Shown: positions 38,396-56,103 of the stretch, in pieces
How the letters are laid out: each line of letters begins with the position of its first letter
How positions within the stretch are numbered: position 1 is the stretch's first letter
Source of the DNA: Ectocarpus siliculosus
Lineage: Eukaryota; Sar; Phaeophyceae; Ectocarpales; Ectocarpaceae
NCBI GenBank assembly: GCA_000310025.1
Contig: FN649748.1
Location: forward strand, 2,827,836-2,884,116
Direction of reading: 5' to 3'
DNA: 56,281 nt
Notes under the pieces: generated by a model
Told to the model about the DNA's origin: nothing
What the model saw: only the letters and a program-made list of their open reading frames with translations
The model's database searches: none
Position numbers and translations under genes: made by a program

Positions 38396-39891
38396 CTCGT
38401 GTCTTCTTCAGTTTAGACTACATTGTAGACCGGCGCCGACTTCCTTCCAAGGAGAGATGCGAATGGCGATGGAGACCGCACCACACGCTCCGGTGATGCG
38501 GTTAGGGTTAGGCAGCGATGTGGCCGGGTGTGATTCGGAGGGCCTGGGTCAGGCAGCGTTTGTGTACATATGTGTCTAAAGTTTGTGATGTCCCAGGTGC
38601 TGGTTTGCTCCCCGTATCATGTCGTTCTGCACTCTCGGTAGATGCACCCTTGGCCAGTTTGACTGTTTTTTGTGTTCGACCGACGAATGATCTTAGGTCG
38701 CAGCTTGTCCAAATTTGTTTGAATCTGTTGAATGTGTTGCGGGGCGTTGACGTTGTTTCCTTCGCATTTGTTGTTTGTTCTTGCCTTGTTAGTTGTTGTT
38801 GTCGTCGTCGTCGTCGTCGTATTCGTCGTTATTGTTGTTGTTGAAGTTGTTGTTGGTGGCGTCCTCGTTGCGTGGTGACGCTGCTCTAGAATACCTACGC
38901 TATATAGTCTCGGTAGATGTTCCGTTCCTGGTTATTGACGAAGATATCGAATACCTACTAGTCTATGGCACACCGCCACCACGTGGTACTGATGTGATGT
39001 CCTTGTGACGTGTTCCGTTCTTTTTCGATTCATACTTTTTTGTTTTTAGGTCTGTGCTTGCTTCACGCGGTCGATTGTGTTTTTGAAAACTCGCTACCTC
39101 ATACGATGCGTGCACCAAGACCCCGGTGTTTCGGTGTTTCGGAAACAATTTCGACTCTTTGGTTGGCAGTGGTTGAATCCCGTTCTACCAAATATACCTC
39201 TTTCAGTTGCACTCGTCGCGAACGCGGTAGTAGTCTTGACGCGTGATATATTTGCCGTGGTTGATGTTGGCCGCAAAAGGAAGTCAACCCTCTTGATCAC
39301 GCCTAGGGTCAAGATCTTGAGATAGCAATTTCAGATACTCACTTCTTTGGGTCTACACGGATCTCTCGTTCGTACTGAAGCGAAGGCAAGAATGCCGGCT
39401 AGATAAGGATATCGTGGTGGACGGCTGCTCAATGCCTTCAACAATTTGCTAAACCCGGGTACGTGCCAAAGGGGAATTTTAGCGGTAGAAGGGGACGAGG
39501 GGATCCATCATTACTGGGCACCGATTGATGGCGTCATGGCAACCTAAGCCCGTCCATGGCTGGGCGACGCGGCTTGTGGGATCATCGCTACTTCCGCCGC
39601 GGCGCCGACTAATCTTCGTACAGGGTATCGAATAAGACCCGCCAGTCTTCCTCGCTCCTGCTCACACAAGATACAGCACGGGGCCACAGCAATGGAGGAT
39701 CAGATAAAGCGTCAAAACCTACGGTTAACCGTCTGTTTGATGGAGCGAAAATCAAAGGCTTGGTCTACCGACAGAAATTGAACAACGTTTTTCGGAGCGA
39801 ACTTGGATTTTGGGGGGCACTACAATTTTAGTTGTTCGAACAAAAATGCTGTAAGCTGTTTGTTGGAAAGCGAGCAGGTGGTTCACCGTAC
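38396..39891. other. Stretch without recognised gene
   Basis: Contains a GTC/TCG triplet run (about 38798-38830). Possible 3' ends of the flanking convergent genes; no further exon was defended. Confidence 0.5.
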
Positions 39892-42561
39892 CTAGGTAGC
39901 CCCACCGGCTCAGGTACATTCTCGATAACGGTCTCGTCGCTGTCGCTGGAGCCGTCGTTACTCTTGCCTGGCGCATCGACGCCATGCGGTACGCCGTCTT
40001 CCTGCCGGGCCAAAGATATAGAATGCAATACCGGAGTGAATACGAAGGGGAGGGGAGTACTGCAATCACTTTTGCCATACACCTACATCTCTTGGTCTGG
40101 GTGTGCGTGGCCGGTTCTGCCGGAGCCCAGAAACCTGGCACCAAATGTCCTTCTACGTCCTGAAGCGCATACGCTGCATAGATGCCGGTAGTCTACTTGG
40201 AGTTTGGGCGGAAGCGGGCGGGATTTCAGTTTTCATTTTCGAGGTGCAGAACTTTGGCATGACGACACCCCCTTCTGCCCCCCGACGCTGACGATGAAAT
40301 CCCTCCACCCGGATTTTCTCATCCCTGCATCACCGTCGCCCTTGAGTCGAGTCCAGAAGTTCTCCATTAAGCCCTTGCCCCATCCTCCTCTGGAGACTAC
40401 GAGGACAAGCAGCAGAGAAAAAACGACCCCTACCGTTACTCCCCGCGCGAAGCCGCCTCCAATTGAAGACAGCGCGGTACCTTCGTCGATACCTGGCCCC
40501 TCTCCGGTGCAGTCCGTTTCTCCCCTCTCACAGAGTGAATCATCGGCGGCCGCCGTTGCAGAGAATAAATACGGGCGGGATGATTCATGTAGCACGGGGA
40601 CTTGAGGCGTGTAGTTGGCGTGGCCGGCGGTCCTGATACCCGGAGACGTGATGGTGGTCTCTGCGTTGAAGACGGGCGCGTGCTGCTGCTGGGGCACGTG
40701 GGCCACGGGGAGAAGGTGAAAGTTGCCGATGACGGCGCCACTGCTTGTCGCCTTAGGTATGCGCGGAGTTCGGTCAATGCAACGGCACGGGGCGCACGTA
40801 CGCCCATTGTAGCAGGAGAAGAGGAACAGGGAAATAGAGGCGAGGGCCCGAAATGAGAGAAAATATGCTATGACAGGCGGAGTGACTACCTCGAGGGACG
40901 CATCCCAGCCAACGTGCGTGGCCTTCCCGTGCGGGTCCGGGTCTAGACATGACAAATCGATCGCAATCCATTGTATGCATTCACTCCGGAGTCGTTGACC
41001 GTGCATTCGATGCCCAAATCTGAGGCGCACCGTGGTCGGTATCAGTTCAACAATGCTTTTTATGAACGGCAAATACAAACACTCCGCATCGAGTGAACTG
41101 ATTCCCTGAGAGTGGATCAGAGGTGCTCCTACACCATACTCACTTGTCCACTGTTCACCTCGAACTTGATCGATGAAGGCAGGGGAAGGAACAATAGACG
41201 AACAATCTCCGCCGTATGCCGTTCACGCCTCCCGGCATCTCCCCCGTCATGATTGCGTGACTGCCAAGAAGCACTCGATACTCGTCTGGCAAGAGAAGAA
41301 GACGTCGTAATCGGCATGAATCCGTAGCAGTCGGAGAGTGTCAAGCTATAGGTGCCGTCGTCAGAAAGCGAGACGCTGTTGTAGCTCCGCACGAGCAGCT
41401 CGCGCTCGACGAAAAGAAGGTCAACGCCTTCGCCTTGGTCGGTGGCGGCCTCTGCACGCCGTCAGTTAGAACGGGCCCGGGAGGATGTTGGTGTGCCACA
41501 GTAGCACTCAATTTGCATGCTGACGTCCACGAAGGAGGGATATTAAAAGCAGTTGCACACTTTTGGTCGAGGACATGCTGACGTCCACGAAGGAGGGATA
41601 TTAAAAGCAGTTGAACACTACTTTGGTCAAGGACAGCTGTCCTACAACTTGCTGTTCATTTGTCAGTCTACGACGTCGAACCCGGTATATCTGTACGTAC
41701 GTGCACGTGACGGCGCACAGGCTTGATCGATTAGTTGAATCTTGCGGGTACGACACAGTCAGGCACCGGCCTAAAATGAAGTAGTCAACCCACATTTCGG
41801 TACTCGTTTGAAAAGTACATTCCTTTCCCCAGGTTCGTCTCAGTTTCAGTCCCCGAGGGAGCCGTGAATGATGTCTTGTGGCTTCACTGAATGAAAATCG
41901 ATTGAACAGGCTATTTCACAAGTTGTTCCGATGCGCATATCGAAGCTGCTCTTCGTTTCCTTTGGTGGACGTACGCCTCATGACGATACTCGCCCTTTTA
42001 ATGTCAACACCGAGACGAAAGATTACAATAGGAACGAACCCCACATCCCCAACATGCAGCTGGCCGAGTTTGTAGCCAGGATGAGTGGAAATATTCACAG
42101 TTTTCCAGTACTACACCATCCCTCAGCTCAGCAGCCAATATGCTGCAATTATTTGTCATAGACATTTACAATAACCATATGCATACTACTGTGGGCTTCT
42201 GCTTTAGCGTATGCCCTCACGGAGTGAACACCAACTATACGTCCCTAAGTATGAACTCTAGCTGATTTCAAAAGTGAAATACGGAGTGACGATACAGCAC
42301 ACTATTCCAGCACGTGTCTTGCCTTCTAGTAGGATTGTGGATGATGTGACTCACTGCGGGAATCGAGTATCAATCATCTTGTTTACAGGCAAGACTAATA
42401 TTTGCGGGTGCATGGTATGCGTAGTAGATGCATTCGATGAGTGGTGAGTTCGGAAGTGCCAGCGTCAACCACGGCGGCATTATGTGCATCATTTCCGTCT
42501 CACCTGAACTTGAAATGAAAGCGGCGCCGCTCGTGCGTGCACGGAGGGTCCGAATTTCGAC
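39892..42561 (-). CDS. Single-pass membrane protein, unknown function (3' exons)
   Basis: Minus-strand exons in order: 42561-42504, 41451-41144, 40751-40269, 40001-39892. Phases agree (1, 0, 0). The first two encode an apparently extracellular region, with VEIRTLRARTSG, DLLFVERELLVRSYNSVSL and DDGTYSLTLSDCYGF. That last stretch resembles the G-x-Y-x-L-x-x-x-D-x-YG(DG) beta-strand motif of secreted stramenopile proteins. The third exon has a linker with N-glycosylation-type sites (NYT), then the hydrophobic helix GVTVGVVFSLLLVLVV followed by Arg and Trp. The last visible exon is a short acidic, Ser-rich tail (SNDGSSDSDETVIENVPEP) ending in phase 2, so one more small exon is expected; a frame ending a few codons later at 39752-39760 is possible. 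The N-terminus with the signal peptide was not found. A surface receptor or adhesin is possible but unproven. Confidence 0.6.
41516..41635. repeat. 58-bp tandem duplication in an intron
   Basis: Two copies start CATGCTGACGTCCACGAAGG at 41516 and 41574. They are nearly identical and lie in the intron between exons 42504-42561 and 41144-41451 of the membrane protein gene. Confidence 0.85.
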
Positions 42562-45500
42562 CTGCAAGCAAAATATGGTAGTGCGCGGCGACGATAGCAA
42601 TTTTGACAGTGGAATCGGCCTTGACAGTGAAGGATGCAGGTGGGGATTTCAGGGGCCCCGTGGGCCTGCCTGACACGATACATATTTGAGCACCGATCAC
42701 TGCCTGTCTAATTCTAGAAGGATGGTTGGCCATTGTTCCCGACACCCCCAAAGAACAAGGAATGGGAACCAGGACGTAGGTTAGCCACTCCCAAATGTTG
42801 CCGACGGAGAGAAAATAGTCCCACCAAGTACATGCCAATGCGGGACTTCGTGTACTGCTGATGTACAGTAGAAGAATGCATCGTCGTCTTATGTGCATGT
42901 GGTATGTAGTTTCAGATGCACGGTCTAAACGTAAAGTTTCAGCTGGGAAGCTTCCTGCACGAGTCGCACCTGACAGTAGGGACCGCGCTGCCGGTCGTCC
43001 CTGTCGGCTTGCTGGTCATCCTCTTCTCCCATAGATGCTGGAGCGTACGGTGGCCAGGTCGCGGAAAACACTCTGGATGCGCCGCCGGTCGCAGCGGACG
43101 TTTAAGGCATCTTTGGGGCAAGCGACCCTTCCTTGCGGTAGAGAGCGGAGAAGCCGGCGAGGGAAGAGGAGAGGCAGTGGTGAGAGGCCTTCTAATGAAG
43201 CCGTTGCTCTGGTGTGCCCAAATAACCGCTGCTTGTTCCCGGAGCCAACGAGTTGATACTGTAAGACAGGAGTTTTCTCAAGCTGAACGTACTACTGTGG
43301 TCTACATAGACGACGGCAGGCAGTCTCCCGCTAAATATCGGCAAATACCGTAAATCAAGGGATCCTCTTCCATTCGCTATGCGGAGTCATGGACGCAGGA
43401 CAAGCTCCTCCACAGCAGCTCCGCAGCAGGTGCCAACGAAGCGATTGTGCTTCAAAACAGCAAGTGAATATGCATATGTGATCCAGCTGTTGGCCTACGC
43501 TTGCTGCCGCACCCTCACGCCCTTCTTACCTTTCGTAGCGTCTCTCAGCAGGTCTAGGGAGGGAAAAAGGAAACAAGCTGCCAACGCACCGATGGGCACA
43601 CACCAAAATGCCACACCGAGCCCTCTCTCTCGCTGCTCTGTGGTGTGTGCAACGCTGTGGATCGCTGCAGCAACTGCAGTGCGTAGGGGCCGCGCAACTG
43701 CTATCCACAGAGGGGGCTGCTTCTCCTATCTATGCCCCCCCCGCCGGCAAGTTGCTGTGTGTGATCTTTGGCTGAGGTCTGACCTGCGCAAGTGTCGCGG
43801 GGAAGTTTGTGAACACTTCGCACAGACCCCGTCGGTGGATGGCGTTGCTGGCCATCAAGTCGAGGTTGCATGGAAGTTCTCTCTCGCTCTCTCTACTTGG
43901 AAATGCCTCTTGTGCCAGTGGAAACCCCTAGTATTGTGATCTTCGGAGATGTGTCCAACATTGTTCAACCATATGGCGCTCCTGCGTCCTCTCTTCAACC
44001 CTGGCAAAGGTTGCTTGGAAACAACACAGACGCCTGTTCACTGTTGTCTGACGGGCTAGAGAGAACCCTATTGTCGCACTGCAGGTGAGCTGGTGTCTGA
44101 ATGGGGTAAACCCATCCATGTTGTCGATGACGCTCTCGCTTTAGCGTACGCAGAAAACATCAGTTCGTCTGATCACAGTGTTCGTAAGCCATGTACACAG
44201 TAGTTCATACGGCCCTTTCCACAGCAGTACATCGATACAATCCCGCTTGTTTCGTGCGTAGACCAAAGATTCATTCGATGCGATGTGAATGGACCCTCGT
44301 TGGTACAGGCGAACTTCCGCACAGGTGAGAAAAAGGAAAACGGAGGTCTGTGCACAACAACAGGGCGCAGCGACAAAAATCTCCCTCCGTTCTGAAGGCT
44401 TCGCGATTATTTCCCGGACGCCCACAACATCTTGTTCAGGTGAAAACAACGTAATCAAATCCTTGGATTTTCCAATATTCGTGCGTATATTCATAAATGC
44501 ATGGCATGGGGAGAGGGGTGGAATTTGCCCCATGCACCCCGCAACCTGGCCTCACTCATCATCTAATAGTGTGAATTCTGTGCACGGCACAATATGTACG
44601 CAGATACTGTAGGGAGATAGAGATAGATGCATTTGACTTGAATGTCGAAAAAGGGGTGCCGCGTTGGATGCGTACCATAGCTAAAACGGTTACCCGAGGA
44701 CAAGCCGCGAAGCTGCCCGTGGAGCACACCACGTGCTTGTCTCAGCACTGTCTGTATGAGCGTTGCCTGAAATGCCCCCAGTCTGTACGCATGTGAAAGA
44801 ATTGGGTCAGAAAGACACCCACACTCATTGACATATACATGCAAGTTCCCCGAACCAAAGCACAGTGAAGGGGTGAAAAGTCGTGCAGCAGGCCGAGAGA
44901 TGGCATGCTCGCGCCCCGGGTGTGCGATGCAAACTTTTGTGATTTGGGGGGCGTGGGATCATTCAGTCATCGCGCTATTCCCGTCGGTTCTGTGCAGTAC
45001 CTGGTGAGATATCTGGGAACTCACCACTGTCATTTCTTGGTGGAAATACTTTCATTTCGTAGCTAGACCTCCACCTTGTTGTTTGCTAGTATGCAGGCAC
45101 AGTACCACATATCGAGGCTCCCTGTCCTACTTTGGGAATCGTTGTCTTCTGCAATACAGAGACATTCCGCCATCCAACATGTAACATAAAAACGCAACAA
45201 TCAGGAACAACATTACTTCAGTATTACACACAGCCTGACTACCACGCATACACCGTACGTCACATTTACTTCCACACCCACCCCCGATCGGTACACTACG
45301 CTCGATTACTCTCCAACAACTAAGGACTTCCAGTGTCGGGATTTGCGGCGTTGGAGCCATCAAGTCACGAGCTTTCCTAAACAACTAACGTGCCATGTTG
45401 TCATCCTCTTCGTCATGGAGTAATCGGGCGTTGACCTTCCGTCCAGGGGATGTTGCATCTTTTGCGACTTGCAGTACTTGAACCGGGAGAATATTCGAGC

Positions 45501-46942
45501 CTATATACTTTGAATTATGAGTTCCTTCTATTGCAATGGCTTCAAACCTAACGCCCACTTGCTCATGTTTGGACCTCATCTCTAGTACACACCCTGAACA
45601 GACTTAAGAGGCATGCGGAAAATCCAAACTGCGACGCTCGAGCGGAAAGGTAATAGCGCGAGAACGACTAAACAGAAACCATGCCGTGAAACACGTGACG
45701 ACATCGATGGAGTAAAAGGACAATGAGATAGTGAGACACAGAATGAACCTGTCAAGACGAGAGGAACCACAAACACCTATCCGTCTGCCGTAAATCGAGC
45801 GGCATATCGTAAATTCGATACGACGAGGTCAAAATATTGACCGTCCAAGGGGACTCCAAAGACGAGCGAACAAGAAACATCCAACGTAAACGCAGCTATA
45901 AGGCAGTGCGAAAAAGAACGAGGCGCTCTGCCCATGCTTCAGGCTCTCGAGCGTCACGTGCACGAGGCGGTAATGCCTCTACTTCAGGCTCTCTAGCCTC
46001 GCATGTACTACTTACTGTACATCAGACCGCCAACCCCATTACGCGTCGCAGTGCTGCTACACGCACAGCGCACACCCCCTTTGCAAACTACAGGATGCCA
46101 TTTTCAGTGCAAAAGGCATGGTACAAGATAATGAAATGTCGCTAGATACTGTCAAATTCGGAAGAGCAGCATAGGGGCCGCAGTATTCGACACCGTGCCC
46201 GATCGGATCGATACGGGAAATTTCTGACCATTTTCGCGGCGTTGCACACCCAACGTGTAGACGCACCAAAAGCCTAGACCATGTAACGCACTCGATAATA
46301 GTGGAGGGCAAAGAGGAAATGATGTACTTGAGGAAATGAAAGCTTAATTGCTGCATAAAGAACATATACACATCTGCCGACGCCCCTTACACAAACAGAA
46401 GGCATGAAAACCATGCTACACCCAGGCAGGCTTGTCTTTCACCTGACAGATACCTCCGAGCTATTAAAATAATGTCGCCACGCCCCAGGTTCCTGCAAGG
46501 AAATCGTCAGCCGCCAACAGAGCACACTCCGAGTACCTGCAGACAACACCCACCACGCATAAGGTTTGGCGGCTCTCGACATCCATCTGAAAATCTGACA
46601 GCTATACCCTGTCCGAGCGCCTTCGCACTCTTTTCACATCAAGCACACACGCCGCACGCCGTAGGCTGCCCACAGCGCCATCGACAAGCTCGTGCATTTC
46701 ACAGGGACAAGGGCTGATCTTTACGACAACCGTTGCCACGGACATGCGTGGCACTGACATTGCACGGCCTTTGACCGGGAGCAATGCCTTGCCTGCAAAC
46801 TCACAGCTGCAGCCAACGAGCTTTCGTCCCCAACTGCATTCTAGTGTGTGCATGCACGCCGCAACTCCAAGCTATCTGCGAACACGCCAAGCAGCATCCA
46901 TCCCCCCCACCCCCCATCCATCCCACGCACCTCGCAGCGATA
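42562..46942. other. Gene-poor stretch
   Basis: The 5' exons of the minus-strand membrane protein gene should lie here. A plus-strand frame at 42916-43050 has a hydrophobic segment (LPVVPVGLLVILF) ending near a plausible splice site, but it has no partner exon that I trust. The remainder shows only short overlapping frames. The 3' UTR of the fusion gene is expected just below 46943. Confidence 0.4.
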
Positions 46943-49900
46943 CTACCCGGTAGACCCAACGAGATTGTACACAAGGACGCCCGTCAGGGCTACGGCGGTG
47001 CCTCCGAGCTGCCGCCCTGTCATCACCTCCCCCATGAGCAGGATCCCGCTTCCGAACATCACCACCCTCTTGACGGAGTTACCCACGGCGTGGCCCACCG
47101 GGCTGAGCTGGGCCAGGAGGTTGAACGAGGCGAGGTTGTACCCGACGAAGCAGAGGGCCGCGTTCACGCCCTCCATGCTCAGCCAGCTAGCGCCGTTGCC
47201 CTCACGGGCGGCATCCGCGGCTTCGACCACGCCTCCGGGAGCGGGGCCTAGGAGCAGGTCGTCCATGCTCCTCATCACGACCCTGAACGCCATGAGGCTG
47301 ACGCCGATCGCCGCCGCTGCTAAGCTGCAGGCCAGGAGGGTCTGATGCGGTGGGACAGGGTCGCCCTTCTTGATCAGCACGTTGCGAAGAGCGTTGCAGC
47401 AGACGGCCGCCATGGTGAACATTGCTGCCAGCACCACCGGGCTGTGGGGCGTGGCTCCTCCCTCTTCCGCTGCCTCGTGGGCGGTTCCTGCTGTGGCCGT
47501 GCTTTTCGTGGTCAACAAGACGATTCCCGCCATGATGACCGCAAGCGACGCCAGCTTGATGCGGTGAACCGTCTTGCCCAGGATAAGGTGCGAGAACGCG
47601 ACGGCAGCGACCGGCTCGGTGGCCTTGAGCGCGCTCGTCACGGCAACGCCGCCAACGAACACGGAGAAGCTCGTGAGAAAGGCCTGGCAGGTGTGGAGGA
47701 TCGCCGCTAGCCCGGCCAGTCGACTAGTAGCAAACGGCTGCACGAGCTGGCCTAGCACACTGACCGAGCCTCCTGCACGCCCTTCGTCGGTGGCACCCAA
47801 GCCCAGACGTCCGAGAGCGCAAAGGACCACGACCCCGACCGACCCCTGCAGAACGAGGAGGCCTACGGGGTCCTGCGTATCCCGAAGATAGGACTTGCTG
47901 TACCTGCTGAAGGCCACCGCCAGAGCTATCCACAGGATGAAGTTGAGCGCGAAGAGAAAGTTGAGAGACGGTCCTTTCTTGGTAGCTGGGAAGCCCGACT
48001 GTTTCGTGGCGGGGCTTCGTTGTGCTGGCGACAGAGAGTCTCGGGAACCCAGCTCGGAATCTCTGAAGCTGGAAGGGCTGGCGGCATCGGTCATGCCGCA
48101 GTGCTCTTCCATTTCTTGGTGGGCAGTGGCCTTCCCTAGGGCAGGCTCCATGCCGCTGACGGCAATGAGGCCCTTCTTGTCTCCATTGGCTGCGTCAGAT
48201 TTGAGTACCCGAGGGCTTCGACCCCCACCGCGGCCACCGCCCGTCTTCGAGGGCAAGGCGGCCAACGCAATGATGGCGAAGAGCAAGAACAAGGCGGCAA
48301 CGCAGTCCAAGCGGACAGATGCCGGCATCATTTTGTGCGACCATGACGGCACGGACCACTCCGCCGGTGTGCCGTTCAGGGCCGCCGCGGCGCTCACTGC
48401 CGCCTGCGGCGCCAGGAGTCCGTTGTCGATCTGAGCGTGTTGTACAGACGTCACCACATCTGGTCCTTGCTGCTGCTGGTGGTGGTCCCCGACCCCGAGG
48501 ACGTCGACGAGCACGTGGCGCGCGTGCACGATGAACTCGTCGTGGAGCGCGGACAGCCGGTCGTGGATCACCGCCCGGCGATCCCCTTCCTCGTAGAGCT
48601 GCCTCACGCGACTAACCGCCGCGTTCACCAGGTCGCGGTCCAGGTCCTCGTCGATCTGGAGGAACTGGTCGGGCAGGGACATGGCGCGCGCCATGACGTC
48701 GGGCACCTTGTTGCCCGAGGGGAGACGGAACGCGGCGAAGGTCGGCACGCCCATGTGCAGGCCCAGCACCACGCCGTGGAGCCTGGTCGAGATGATCGCC
48801 TTGCAATTGCACAGCTGCTCGACGTACTCCATCGGATCGACGATTTGCTCCACTGCGCCGGGGTACGCGAACTTCTCGGGGGGTCCGGGGGGCGAATTTC
48901 ACAGCACCCGATGGAAGAGAGGCGGGGGAGAGGGGTTATTCAGTGACACCCAGGATGGCATGATGTGAAAGGGACGCGAAACGCCCCCATACTTGTCTCA
49001 TACACACGAATGCTTGGTCTGTGGGCGGGAACACGGGAGAATAATATAAACACGAGCGACCGCACAACGCAATCCATGCCAATGCCCACCTTTTCGATCT
49101 CCTTCTGATGCTTCGGGAAAACGTTGATGAACCTGTCGCCCTCCCTCACAGCGTTGAGCAGGTGTTCGTGCATCTCAATCGTGTCCTGCGTGTTGGCCGC
49201 AGGTACTACGAAACATAGGGGCTGTTGATCGTCGCCTACGGGAACCACGAGCCGGTGAAACAAAGGCGAGAAGCGCGAACAAAATGCAAGCGGCAACGTG
49301 CAAGAAATCAGCGTGGTTGACGGCTGACTGGCTGGGGCGGCAAGATAACAACTTCATTTTCCTCCTGTCTTAGCTGGCTGCGGTGTTCATCTCGCGTGGG
49401 TCTCGCCTTGCCGGGGAAACCGACCAATAGCATTGAACATTGGCGTGTGAAAACAAACCCAAACGCGGGTCTTGAGCTCTTAGTGTCAGGTACCTTCCGA
49501 TCGCAAAAGACAACTCTCCCGTTCATGAAACGAAAATTGGTTCCCCGATAGTCTCTTCCATTTACTCTGCTCGGACCAGTCAAAAGCCAGCGGTGCTCAC
49601 CTGCGCTCCGTTTCCAGCAACTGCCCTCTTTGTCAGACAGCATCTTGTTGCTCAACACGGGGTCCCTCACGAGAGCGACGTCATCGGGGGCCACGGTCGC
49701 GTTGGGATCGCGCCCCAGCACGGACTTGAACGTTTTGATCGACGTCTCATCGCGGCCGGACACGAACACCGCCTTCGACAGCAGCTTGCTGTAGGTCTTC
49801 GCGCGGTAGCTGACAGGGGGGAGGAAACGACAACAGACCGGCGGACGCCAGCGGTCGAAAGCAGCGCGCACGCATGCACGAGAGACGTCTGCTGTCGAAA

Positions 49901-52395
49901 TACTGTCCAAAGACGAAGGTGCTCGCGGTTCTTGTTTCCTTGGTGGCAAGGCGTGGAGGCGTCCTTGGTTTGCGTCACCCACAGGGGAGGAGGGGATGGG
50001 TTCGCAAGGCATCGTCACCCTGGCGGGAGCACAATATCCCTAGGGTGCCTACGGGGTATTGTACCCGCGGGGAGCCTTCGAGAAAGGGTCCCCATACACA
50101 AAGCGTGCCTCGTAGCATCGTGGCCATTCGGTTCCTACCCCACGATGAGTCAGCACATGGGAAACGGTTGGTGTAGAGCCCTTACTCAGCCTGCGAATCA
50201 ATCCAACCGACACACAGAGCGCGGCCTCGTAGCATCATTGGCCGTTCGTTTCGTACGCGACCATGAGTCTACGAGACGGTTGGTGCAGCCCTCAACGAGC
50301 CTGCGAATCGATCCAACCCCCCGCTTCCAACCGAATATTGCAAGAGACAGCGGGAAGCCGAAGGAACGCGACACTCACGATGCTCCCACTCCCATCACGA
50401 CTATCGGCAGGGTCAAGGCCTCTGCAAATTGGTCGTTTTGCAACGGCTGGTGGGTCGCTGCGAAAATCCCTCCGCCACCGATAACCAAGGCCTTGAACCG
50501 ATTTACCTGTGTGTTCGTCAAGCCGTTTCGATAATGGGGTTAGTCCACCGCAGTACGCTGTGACGGCACGCCGGCGTGCACGCGCGCATAACGGTGTCAC
50601 GGAACGCTAAAACGACAGTCATGCTCGAGAGTCCCAGCCGGTGCCCATCCCAACCGAATGGTCCGATTCACATGTGTCCGTGTTCTTCCGTCCCGACAAA
50701 AAATCTCTCGAGGTTGCCCCGTGAAATGGAGCCGTTTCTGTTCCGGAAAAACCATGAAATGCTGTGAGAACAATCTTGACACTAGCTCTTTCTTGTCTTC
50801 GTTTTCAAGAACTCGGAAAAACTTGCCAATTTCGATCGGACAGCCACAACGGTTTCCCCGGACACTTCTACTGCTCCAGGCAACAAGCTAGTGAGAGTTT
50901 CCTCTCAACAGAAAACACCAAGGCACACGGATATGCCTTGAAGACCAAAATGAAGATTCATACGTGTTTATTTTCCTTTCTGCAATGTTGTACCAACCGG
51001 GTGAAAAATAGTGTCTGGCCCAATGATACATATTGCCCCCCCCAAATTCTTGGGATACACTAGCGTCGTTCCACCCTATCGAGAACGACATCAACAATAC
51101 ACACGATATCACCTCGCGGGAGCTACCTGGTGGGCGAACTGTCGGTGTGATTCGGGGGAGAGTGTCCACTCTCTGTTGGAGCCGGGGGCGCAGAAGAAGG
51201 GCCAGGACACTCGCTGTCCGCGAAAAAAAAAAAAAGTGGTGTATGTATGTGTGTTTCGTTACCTTCCAAGCGAGGTCGGGCGTGAGGGGGAACACCTTCG
51301 AGTCGTCCCCGCCGAAAAACTCGCCGATGCGGTAACCCCTTTCGAGATATTCTCCGGCCGGGTGTGCGTACCAAAAACACTGGTCCGGTGCGACAGAAGC
51401 TAGGAGGTCTTGCATCGCGATTGGTTGCACCACATCACCCATGTTGCCTGGCAAGAGGTTGATTCGCGTCAGAAACAGAGGTGAATGCGCTAAAGTTCCG
51501 TGTGCCGAGTCAAATAGGCTTGGCGACACTCGCCAAACAATCATTTTGCCGGGCGTTGTTTCCCAAACGCTGCTGCTGATGCTGATGATGGTGATGGTAA
51601 TGGTGATTCTGCTGCTGGCAGTCGCAGCCGCGGTGGCAAGCCAATATTCTTCGACACCTATCACGTCCGACGCGTATTTGGACCAGTTATGCAAAGAATG
51701 TGTATAATGCCGGGTGCTTTGATCAAACGTTGCAGTTGCTGATGGAGCTTCTGAAGCTGGCAGTCACAGCAGCAGCGGCGGTGAGCCACTTTTTCTTCGA
51801 CATCGCCACCACCCTATCGAGTCAAACGCGTACTTCGGATCCAATATTCGGCGACGGCAGGCCAGCCATCAACAAGGAGACCAGCACGGAAAAGGCCATC
51901 ATAGTCACACCCAACATGGACCTCGCCGAGGCAACGCCACAATGGACTGATATAACTCCTCCTTTTTTTCTCACCATTGCAGAACCCCCCGAACAACAGG
52001 ATGCAGTCCCCGACATCATCGAACAGGCCCGCCTTGGACGGATCGGCCTGCCTCGAGTGCCAGTCGGCGCCCACTGCCCGTCTCCGCCCGTGCTGCGCGG
52101 CCTCTCGTAGCGGTGCTGTAAGCGTCTCCATCTCCTCCGAACTTGGTTGCCCTGCCCAACCCAGAAACCAGACGCGGAGGGGGGGAAGGGGGGTTCGTTC
52201 AACACGCTGCCCGGGTGCGAATTGCCCGGAAACAATGGGACACCGTCGATATTGTTCGGCCTCATCTTACCCCCCTATATTTACGCGTCCGTCTTGGTCC
52301 TCTCGACCAGGCCGCACACAAAATTCAGGTTGAGAACGGGATCTACCCTCTCGATGAGCGCATTGTTGCTGGTACAGCGCGCGGGAACGACCGCC
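46943..52395 (-). CDS. Polysaccharide pyruvyl transferase fused to a TPT/PEP-translocator-type transporter
   Basis: Minus-strand exons: 52395-52285, 52141-51975, 51447-51263, 50506-50379, 49809-49601, 49235-49090, 48871-46943. Every junction is phase-compatible (2, 1, 0, 2, 1, 0). Visible protein is about 957 residues; the N-terminus is upstream. Residues 1-440 are a polysaccharide pyruvyl transferase: GNMGDVVQPIAMQDLL, then KALVIGGGGIF, VALVRDP and STRLHGVVLGLHMGVP. This family moves pyruvate from PEP onto sugar hydroxyls as a ketal. After a Gln-rich linker comes one hydrophobic helix (about 503-522), a charged loop, then a multi-helix transporter (about 618-957). Its LKATEPVAAVAFSHLILGK and NSVKRVVM (about 913) are hallmarks of the triose-phosphate/PEP translocator family. 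The last exon encodes both the end of the enzyme and the whole transporter without a break, so the fusion is not an exon-joining guess. The transporter substrate is inferred. Confidence 0.88.
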
Positions 52396-53582
52396 CTTGC
52401 AGTGGTCGAGCCCCACAGTTCTCCGTTTTTTTTTTTTCATGTCGCACACGGGTTCGATACTTGCACTGCTACGATGGCACATCGATCGTGTCCACCAGTG
52501 ACAGCACCCAATCAGCGCATCGTCGAATACTCTGGGCATCAGGTTCTTAGCCCTGGTCGTGGGGCGTTTCAAGCATACGCAAGGATAACCGTCTGTCCAG
52601 GTGTAGGTGAAGTTAGTTGACCACACGACCAACTTGGGTTTGATTGTTGTTCCCCATCATCTGTATGTTTTCGTCGTTCCACCTGCATAGTAAGCGAGAA
52701 AATCGACAGAGGACCTCCAATTGTGCTCAAGAAAACCAGAGCACAGACTATAGCTTTTGCACACGAACTGAAAGACGACCATGGTTCGAACAAACGAAAA
52801 CGAAAAGATTCTTGGGCGATGAAGAGAGGGAGGGATACGAAATGATTCATCGAGCTTTTCGAACTTCTCCAGAATTGGAGACGCTCCGTAAGGGTTCCCG
52901 AAAACAATACTTGTCTCGACACTCTCAACACGTGATGTACGACAAGCTCGCCCTGCGTGCGAGTGGTCCCTTGTTATGCTTTTTGTAGGGACTTGAGTTT
53001 TTTTTTGCTTACATCGACCACGGTACTGTAATCGGCTGACCACTGCAGACCGTCGGTCGCCTTGAGATACCTGGAGCGATTTGAAGCTTGGTTACTCTGC
53101 TGAACAGCTTGTATCAGACACTTGGTGTTTTTTCCTATCAGAAGTTCTCGTTGTGCTCTATTCGGCTTGCCATCACAGCAGTTTGAGCCAGCAGATAAGA
53201 AACGTTCATTTCGGGTCGAGGTTCATGTCCTCATGTTGGCTCGAAGGACCATCCGAAGGCTTCCGCTTTCTGCACTAGAGAGTTTCACATGTTTTGGGTG
53301 TGTCGGCAACATGCAAATTTCCATACTCTCGTGGTTCTTGCTAATAAGAGTAGGCGTGGCGACATGAGGGGTTTTTGCCCTTGTGAAATTCCTGAATCCC
53401 TCCTCTATTGTCCATTTCTAGCAGCACCCATGCCCCAACGGCCGCGAATGAAGCCCCCCCCAACGCGCCCCGAAGTGGTTTGAAAAGGCGGGAAGGGACA
53501 TCGGTAGGATAGACAGACTAGGGAAGACATTTTTGAGCCACCTTTGGCAAAGTAGGAAGGAACGATTGGCCATCGGTAGTCG
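52396..53582. other. Probable 5' region of the fusion gene
   Basis: The 5' exon(s) of the fusion gene should be here. A minus-strand frame near 52690-52790 has a hydrophobic helix, AIVCALVFLSTIGGPLSIF, that could be a signal anchor, but the splice link to 52395 (phase 2) was not established. Confidence 0.35.
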
Positions 53583-53677
53583 GTCCTGTGGGAACAATGC
53601 TCCGTCCTCTCGAGGACGCATGGTCAATGGTCTAACCGCTAAGGCATGCAAAACATAAGAGTACGCCCCCCCCCACG
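53583..53677 (-). repeat. Dispersed repeat, copy B (inverted relative to 13664-13755)
   Basis: The reverse complement carries GCGTACTCTTATGTTTTGCA, GCGTCCTCGAGAGGACGGAG and GCATTGTTCCCAC in the same order and spacing as copy A. Confidence 0.55.
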
Positions 53678-53893
53678 CGCCCCGCCAACACAAAAAATAA
53701 CCACGTTTTACACCGTGGCCCCCAAGAGAAAGTGGTGTGCCTCTGATTGGACACGCTTGCTTCAACCACAGCTACTTCTTGTGATGACAATTGGCCATGA
53801 GGATATTTGACGGTAGGTGTCCCGGGCGGCGACCGGAAACCGTTGTTGGTTTCGATGTAAGATCCAATATCTTTGTGTCTGTCCGTACTATTA

Positions 53894-53949
53894 GCATCGA
53901 CCGCGCTAACTGCTGACCAATGGTAGGACGCCAGTCAGTCTCAGTGCGG
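53894..53949 (+). repeat. Short direct repeat, copy 1
   Basis: GCATCGACCGCGCTAACTG, then CTGACCAAT, then GGACGCCAGTC, then AGTGCGG. The same block order recurs at 54274-54326. Confidence 0.7.
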
Positions 53950-54273
53950 CCGTGTATGTATGGTTCTATCTGCGGTTGCAAGTACCTACATGTAGACCAA
54001 TTAATGCTGGGGCATCTACAAGCAGATAGCAAGGAGAACATGAGTAGAAAGCAGAAACCTCGCGTAGCGATGACATCACGAATAGAACAAGCGAACACAA
54101 GTCGGGGTTTCTTTTCACCGTTCCGATAAAAAATGCACGACTTTTCCGTTGCGTTAATAGCGAGCCTAATACTACCCCTTACCCTACCGCTCGCTGCGCG
54201 CCGCTAGGTAGGTAGGTTGTGGGTTATTATTTGTCGTAGTGTGTGCAGTTGCGTGTGTTTTGTTTTCTTACAG

Positions 54274-54990: not shown

Positions 54991-55021
<31 letters not shown>

Positions 55022-56103
55022 CTTCACATCAAAAACCGTTCCGATCTCTCTCTACCCAGCACCTTCATATGTCCGTACTGATCCAACACTTGACGCGGTC
55101 GATTCCCGTGGTCACAGGCTAACTTAGAGTAGATCTTAACAAAGAAATCAGATCTCGAAATTTTATTTCGATATAAGAATAAAAGAGTCTGATCTACCCA
55201 AATCCCGACAGAAGTGGAAGGTTGTGTTGTACAACCTGGTGTTTTGTCAGAACGGTTAGATCAAAGGGGGCACCGTAGGTAAGAGATAATTCATAGGTAG
55301 GCATGTAAAACGAAAGGAAAAGGAAAAATAAAGACATGTACCTTGCTCACAACAGAAGAAACGTCTGAACGAAAGAGCAAGACAACAAGCAAACAAGAGG
55401 AGGAGTAGAAGAGAGACAGAAGAGGAAGAAGAAGGAAGCGAGTGTACGGAAGGGAGGAGACAGACAGAGAAAGAGAGCAAGAGCATCGTCGGTTCGTTTT
55501 TGTTTTCAACGTCGGTCGACCCGGCGCTTGAGCGCGGGGGCCGGGATCCTGCTGCCGAGGGCGGGGTCCCATGCCGAATACGGTAAGGCTTGGGACGTTG
55601 ACACCGATGCGGCGCCGCGACGAGGAGGAGGAAGAGCAAGGCGGATGGCGGGGCCAAGGAAGGGGAGAGGACGGGGGCTGTCCGCAGAGGGGCGGAGGTG
55701 AGAGGAGGAGGTCGTTGAGCCAGGGTGAGCGACGGGTGACCAGTGTAGAGGGCCCGGGGACTTTGAGGATTGAGTCACGTCTATCGCCGTCCGCGTACTG
55801 AGGGTGAAGAGCGCGCCACTCAAGACCTAGGCAGACGCGTTCCAAATCCCCAATGGTAGTTAGGCGCGACCAGTCTACTCACGTCAGCCGCCGGGGTCCG
55901 TCACGTACGCAGCATGTCCCGTCCTCACAAGGCCACCGCAACGATTCCCACGCGCACGGCGGGAGTTCGTATGGTAGGGGGGCGGGGGGGAGGGGGGGGG
56001 GGTGGACACGTGGGGGGCGCCGGGATCTGCGCGGACGGACCAGCGCACTATGGGCCGCAAGGGGAAGAGATGGGAGCAGCGGGAGGAGGGTGCAGTAGGC
56101 CAG
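54327..56103. other. Stretch without recognised gene
   Basis: Contains a TTG run (about 54993-55020), a GA-rich tract (about 55300-55480) whose opposite strand yields a spurious Leu/Ser-rich frame, and G-runs near 55978-56000. No supported exon. Confidence 0.45.

Follow-up and report, generated by a model that had tools for sequence, protein, structure and literature searches.

In a 56,281-nucleotide stretch of the Ectocarpus siliculosus genome (GenBank assembly GCA_000310025.1, contig FN649748.1, forward-strand positions 2,827,836 to 2,884,116; hereafter the window), one minus-strand gene unites, within a single reading frame, the coding sequence of a polysaccharide pyruvyl transferase with that of a TPT-family transporter, and the same union is found at four further loci of this genome. 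Judged from sequence, the product is probably a membrane protein that brings in the donor it uses, i.e. a secretory carrier that takes phosphoenolpyruvate (PEP) in and phosphate out and is tethered to a lumenal pyruvyl transferase.

In a Pfam search, an open frame of 651 codons (46943–48898, minus strand, as are all features of the gene) matched both PF04230 (PS_pyruv_trans; profile positions 239–275, E 8e-8) and PF03151 (TPT; E 5e-27), with no stop codon between the two domains. Guided by paralogous loci elsewhere in this genome as well as by GT/AG sites and compatible phases, we located five coding exons upstream of the last one. Exon 1 is represented by its 3′ end (at least 51975–52020), which holds the start of the enzyme (DDVGDCILLFGGFCNG), a segment also present in the paralogous loci L003, L004, L005 and L002, and which has the donor GTGAGA in phase 1. 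Exon 2 (51263–51447) carries the GNMGD acceptor-site motif and agrees with L003 and L004 in GT/AG sites and phase. Exons 3 (50379–50506; VNRFKALVIGGGGIFAA), 4 (49601–49809) and 5 (49090–49235; QPLCFVVPAANT to NVFPKHQKEIEK) were placed by paralogue comparison and splice sites; in exon 4, residue mapping identified the PEP-site arginine within FVSGRDETS. The last exon (46943–48874) comprises 1,932 nt including the stop codon. It encodes the C-terminal part of the enzyme with STRLHG and GNKVPD (48491–48874; PF04230, alignment A1), a linker with an extra hydrophobic helix (48254–48310; LDCVAALFLLFAIIALAAL; hydropathy 2.71 over 19 residues) and a transporter domain of 341 residues (46946–47968; PF03151, alignment A2). 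The spliced product has 881 residues counted from the first shared residue and a calculated mass of at least 93 kDa. It scored 85.6 bits against PF04230 (curated cut-off 25.3; profile 1–275 of 280, E 7e-24) and, in the same chain, 94.2 bits against PF03151 (curated cut-off 30; E 1e-26). An AlphaFold2 model of the last exon alone had a predicted local distance difference test score of 40 and a predicted template modelling score of 0.25 and was not used. The single polypeptide claimed in the original prediction is thus borne out by one open exon holding both domains and by a spliced protein above both family cut-offs, and the last exon of about 1.9 kb with the end of the enzyme and the transporter was confirmed together with the intron before it (48875–49089). 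Of the seven phase-compatible exons proposed there, six were found with compatible phases, while the seventh, 5′-most exon and a start near 52395 are unconfirmed.

The fusion belongs to a gene family. Genome-wide profile searches placed PF04230 at five sites and, counted exon by exon, PF03151 at 29; searches with single proteins yielded six enzyme loci and five loci with the close transporter type. Five loci carry enzyme and transporter in one frame and in the same domain order (the window gene, L001, L003, L005 and L002). They are spread over three contigs, and four of the five show clear sequence divergence among themselves. All five fused loci were the best matches to the window transporter, each with a best match of at least 84.6 bits, the next being a locus on contig C26 with 37.6 bits. 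L003, on contig C2, has a frame running from ATG to stop that encodes 1,195 residues (calculated 126 kDa); L005 (C2:6029600–6039500, minus strand) is its head-to-head neighbour. The PF04230 scores were 68.0 bits for L003, 75.6 for L004 and 43.1 for L002 (exon 4 onward), and 18.6 for L005, which is under the cut-off; the PF03151 scores of L003 (102.2 bits), L005 (41.1) and L002 (54.1) all exceed the cut-off of 30. The sixth enzyme locus, L004 on contig C7, encodes 486 residues and reaches a stop codon 41 residues past the enzyme, and none of the PF03151 matches listed by the genome-wide profile search lies on C7; L004 is a natural stand-alone control for the fused loci. The case that homologues always keep the two domains separate, named in the original prediction as one that would speak against the fusion, does not hold in this genome, where five of the six enzyme loci found are fused. 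The window intron 48875–49089 is shared with L001, the frame is continuous at this place in L003, L005 and L002, and L004 has an intron at a different position (between GNK and VPD), which indicates intron gain or loss within the family. In L002, on contig C44, the first exons lie about 8–9 kb upstream of the fourth exon, and the interval contains a run of N as well as a reverse-transcriptase frame. Within the large intron that separates exon 3 from exon 4, this frame (PF00078, E 4e-15) occupies L002 positions 1–1227 (C44:243000–244226). Directly after it, a 214-base piece (L002 1329–1542) matches window 53473–53686, and past the N run a 125-base piece (L002 2849–2973) matches window 55002–55126, both in the range of 94–96% identity.

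The two parts of the fused genes have diverged in step. Maximum-likelihood distances for enzyme and transporter across the five fused genes were correlated with r = 0.993 and a slope of 0.94 (10 non-independent pairs), and the best quartet was identical for both parts, with small likelihood margins (3.8 log units for the enzyme, 1.6 for the transporter). Because the enzyme and transporter distances agree, the data suggest one old fusion that was copied as a unit. Between the window gene and L003, the ratio of non-synonymous to synonymous substitution rates (dN/dS) was 0.17 for the enzyme and 0.33 for the transporter, at a dS of about 1–1.8, i.e. near saturation; by these values both parts look constrained. 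Key nodes of the enzyme tree had supports of 60 and 78, and L004 may be rooted either way, so that its transporter was lost or never present. In the transporter tree, L003 and L005 grouped with a support of 55 and L002 grouped with the outgroup from contig C16 with a support of 24. Contig C16 carries a TPT of plastid type that, judged by eye, starts with a signal-like segment and bears an AF motif. A GTDB scan with the enzyme alignment, a weak probe resting on two short peptide patterns, confirmed no relative (50 pattern-matching stretches failed tblastn); scans of viral contigs, equally weak with two short patterns each for enzyme and transporter, confirmed none either (50 and 12 stretches failed tblastn).

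Furthermore, active-site residues are conserved in both halves. The window enzyme did not match the fission yeast pyruvyl transferase Pvg1p (5AX7) among PDB sequences by phmmer or profile search up to E 10, and the catalytic residues were therefore mapped by motif onto GNMGD, SGRD, TRLHG and GNKV. Residues reported or predicted to bind PEP or the acceptor are D106, R217, R337, H339 and K361 in Pvg1p (PMC4872226, PMC10435577) and R148, R306, H308 and K328 in CsaB (PMC10435577). By this mapping, five of the six enzyme loci, namely the window gene, L001, L003, L002 and L004, retain every equivalent of Pvg1p N103, D106, R217, R337, H339 and K361; in L003, Phe replaces the Leu of RLH. For the transporter, six pocket residues have been named in the Arabidopsis TPT (PMC6981301): Lys203, Tyr338, Lys359, Arg360, Phe262 and His184. 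Four of the five fused genes retain Lys203 and Tyr338, and all five retain Lys359 and Arg360, as in the plastid TPT and PPT carriers and in diatom TPT1, TPT2 and TPT4a. The bulk of Phe262 is thought to exclude PEP (PMC6981301), and this position is non-aromatic throughout the fused genes (Asn in the window gene, L001 and L003, Val in L002, Ser in L005). In keeping with the original prediction, a PEP-using enzyme family is joined to a family that includes PEP/phosphate translocators, and PEP-site and phosphate-site residues are conserved. L005 departs in both halves: three of the five tested PEP/acceptor-site residues fail in its enzyme (D106 to E, H339 to D, K361 to E) and the transporter shows K203 to S and Y338 to C, with the frame still open. 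Since both sites are changed in this one gene, the joint alteration suggests, without proving it, a common task for enzyme and transporter. With its intact frame and both sites altered, L005 may have taken on a new role.

In the cycle we propose, the polysaccharide pyruvyl transferase would reside in the lumen, and the added transmembrane helix would lead the polypeptide across the membrane again to its cytosolic face, to be followed by the TPT-family transporter. The latter would swap cytosolic PEP for lumenal phosphate. The enzyme would then move pyruvate from PEP onto a sugar of a wall or glycoprotein glycan, freeing one phosphate per PEP, and the freed phosphate would serve as the counter-ion for the next PEP. 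With one PEP in and one phosphate out per transfer, such a cycle would be closed in stoichiometry. For the fused proteins, we infer expression, PEP as the substrate, antiport, a secretory (Golgi-type) location and a sugar as the acceptor. Ketal pyruvyl transfer consumes PEP and liberates phosphate; an assay via phosphate release is the subject of PMC8615578, and phosphate/PEP exchange by diatom TPTs was measured in PMC6981301 (Table 1).

In the hydropathy profiles, a single strong hydrophobic segment separates the enzyme from the transporter in each of the four distinct fused proteins. Lys/Arg counts before and after this segment were 2/4, 0/2, 2/4 and 1/3, with more residues after it in each case. 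TPT-family carriers begin on the cytosolic side; if the enzyme is lumenal, the linker helix would return the chain to the cytosol, where such carriers start. The transporter parts of the four proteins gave seven to nine segments, not the ten helices that we take to be the topology of the family. N-terminal hydrophobic segments were found in L003, L004 and L005 (the start of L005 being chosen by hand in exon 1) and, by eye, in L002. No plastid-type motif was seen by eye at the readable N-termini of L003, L005 and L002.

Several observations weigh against the proposed import and transfer cycle, and we consider them here together with the alternatives to which they lend support. The first concerns the product: passages of a review (PMC6801904) name pyruvylated galactans from red and green algae, not from brown algae. 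Others concern the transporter. Where the Arabidopsis TPT has His184, four of the five fused genes have Ala and the fifth has Thr, and His184 is kept in diatom TPT1, TPT4a and TPT4b (PMC6981301). Diatom TPT2, which also lacks His184 (Gln there), has Phe at position 262 and still exchanged PEP, its rate being 23% of that with phosphate (PMC6981301); the pocket residues therefore do not fix the substrate, and a non-aromatic residue 262 is not a strict proxy for PEP. Furthermore, the Lys-Arg motif occurs in five of seven other TPT stretches examined (the sixth has a match that stops at the Lys, the seventh had no match) as well as in the C16 and C26 loci; as it is found in other TPTs of this genome, it does not single out PEP. 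The fusion could thus be real and its transporter could carry another phosphorylated compound, such as a triose phosphate or a nucleotide sugar, or mainly export phosphate, with PEP entering by a separate carrier comparable to Pet1p/Pet2p of fission yeast. Besides the changed His184 position, it is in favour of this explanation that diatom TPTs carry triose phosphates and 3-phosphoglycerate in addition to PEP (PMC6981301) and that the spliced window protein scored marginally above the cut-off for EamA (28.6 against 28.2 bits); its Nuc_sug_transp score was below the cut-off (14.0 against 27). We consider it unlikely in view of the kept Lys203, Tyr338, Lys359 and Arg360 and the non-aromatic position 262, of the sole solved relative found, a plastid phosphate translocator (5Y78/5Y79), and of the partner, which belongs to a PEP-using enzyme family. 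Because of the changed His184 position we do not class the transporter as a plastid-type phosphate translocator (pPT); its sequence suggests a carrier that works like one.

Further points against the cycle come from L001, the near-identical relative of the window gene. L001 lies 97 kb away in inverted orientation and is 95.9% identical over 9.2 kb of DNA. It is part of an inverted duplicated stretch, window 39368–54062 against C23:2773869–2792900 on the same contig, with 91–96% identity in three blocks; the distant copy spans at least these coordinates, its limit on one side lying beyond the compared stretch. A stretch of about 4.4 kb between two of the blocks is present in the distant copy only. 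Comparison of the window gene with L001 gave 20 non-synonymous and 9 synonymous codon differences for the enzyme part, i.e. a dN/dS of 0.65, and 3 and 5 for the transporter part (dN/dS 0.22), so that the enzyme is weakly constrained between the copies and may be relaxed in at least one of them; divergence in exons 2–4 is about the same as in the introns. In addition, no anchor-bearing first exon was located upstream in the window gene or in L001, which makes a lumenal enzyme hard to place for these two genes. A scan for upstream hydrophobic segments found one near window 52778 that is kept in both copies; we do not claim it as an exon. The window gene and L001 might accordingly be decaying, leaving L003 or L002 as the only working fusion. 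The missing anchor exon, the enzyme dN/dS between the copies and the substitution G280S in L001, at a site invariant in alignment A1, favour such decay. Against it stand the six recovered exons, which are open and flanked by splice sites in both copies, the retention of all listed active-site residues except His184 and Phe262, and the enzyme dN/dS of 0.17 relative to L003, and we rate it as somewhat less probable again.

The linker bears on a further alternative, namely that the single chain is cleaved there into two proteins that share their expression only. The linker is long and variable, with 28% identity between the window gene and L003 and lengths of 174 residues in the window gene, 164 in L002, 291 in L005 and 405 in L003, which is in favour of cleavage. 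However, none of the four distinct fused proteins lacks the extra hydrophobic segment, for which a mere spacer would have no need, and we give cleavage a small chance. Finally, a merger of two neighbouring genes by an assembly or gene-model error is refuted by the paralogues, and chance is excluded as well; a local assembly error at the junction had been named in the original prediction as one outcome that would refute the fusion. Besides the window gene, four loci hold both domains in a single open exon, the five being spread over three contigs; no point in its favour was found and its probability is negligible.

Apart from the gene, ten long, non-overlapping frames of the window were compared with Pfam, and none had a match at E 0.001. 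Elsewhere in the genome, light-harvesting protein matches numbered 87, counted exon by exon; together with the plastid-type TPT on C16 they are consistent with an alga whose complex plastid is red-derived, and a brown alga is plausible on these grounds.

Golgi modification requires that a cytosolic donor be moved into the lumen, and to our knowledge the known Golgi carriers and enzymes are separate proteins or loose complexes. Pvg1p is presumably of the same Pfam family as the window enzyme, the two being distant given the lack of a match up to E 10; CsaB is, as far as we know, a bacterial enzyme without a joined transporter. The closest functional counterpart is found in Schizosaccharomyces pombe, as the original prediction had noted: Pvg1p with Pet1p and Pet2p likewise combines a PEP-dependent pyruvyl transferase, a type II anchor and a dedicated PEP supply to the Golgi lumen (PMC4872226, PMC6801904, PMC10435577). 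In the yeast these are three separate proteins, whereas the fused loci encode one chain. CsaB of Paenibacillus alvei is a ketal-pyruvyl transferase whose R148, R306, H308 and K328 match, by motif mapping, residues kept here (PMC10435577). Unlike in the plastid TPT and PPT carriers, the transporter of the fused proteins stands behind an enzyme and an extra helix, has a changed His184 position and, in L003, L005 and L002, is preceded by signal- or anchor-like N-termini. An association of donor transporters with donor-using enzymes has been reported for SLC35A2 and SLC35A3 with MGATs (PMC6453868); these assemblies of the mammalian Golgi are non-covalent, consist of separate proteins and use other donors. 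We found no description of a PF04230–PF03151 union among the literature matches listed, which covered titles and the openings of abstracts and few subscription journals, and in a term search the main text of a paper on brown-algal wall polysaccharide genes (PMC11468063) contained neither "pyruv" nor "transporter". The parts and the pathway are thus of known kinds, and the covalent union is new as far as we have seen in the literature.

Fusion of carrier and enzyme would tie donor supply and transfer together at the genetic level. It also allows a substrate to be predicted for the transporter and a topology for the enzyme, and it hints at a possible pyruvate modification in this alga. As built-in controls on what the fusion buys, the family offers L004, which stands alone, and L005, which is changed in both sites. 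Tentatively, and with somewhat more doubt than confidence, the family might represent a self-supplying glycan-modifying enzyme, in which import, phosphate return and transfer would form one covalent cycle that is kept as a multi-gene family, perhaps with PEP handed over from carrier to active site. If this is true, pyruvylated glycans are to be expected in this alga.

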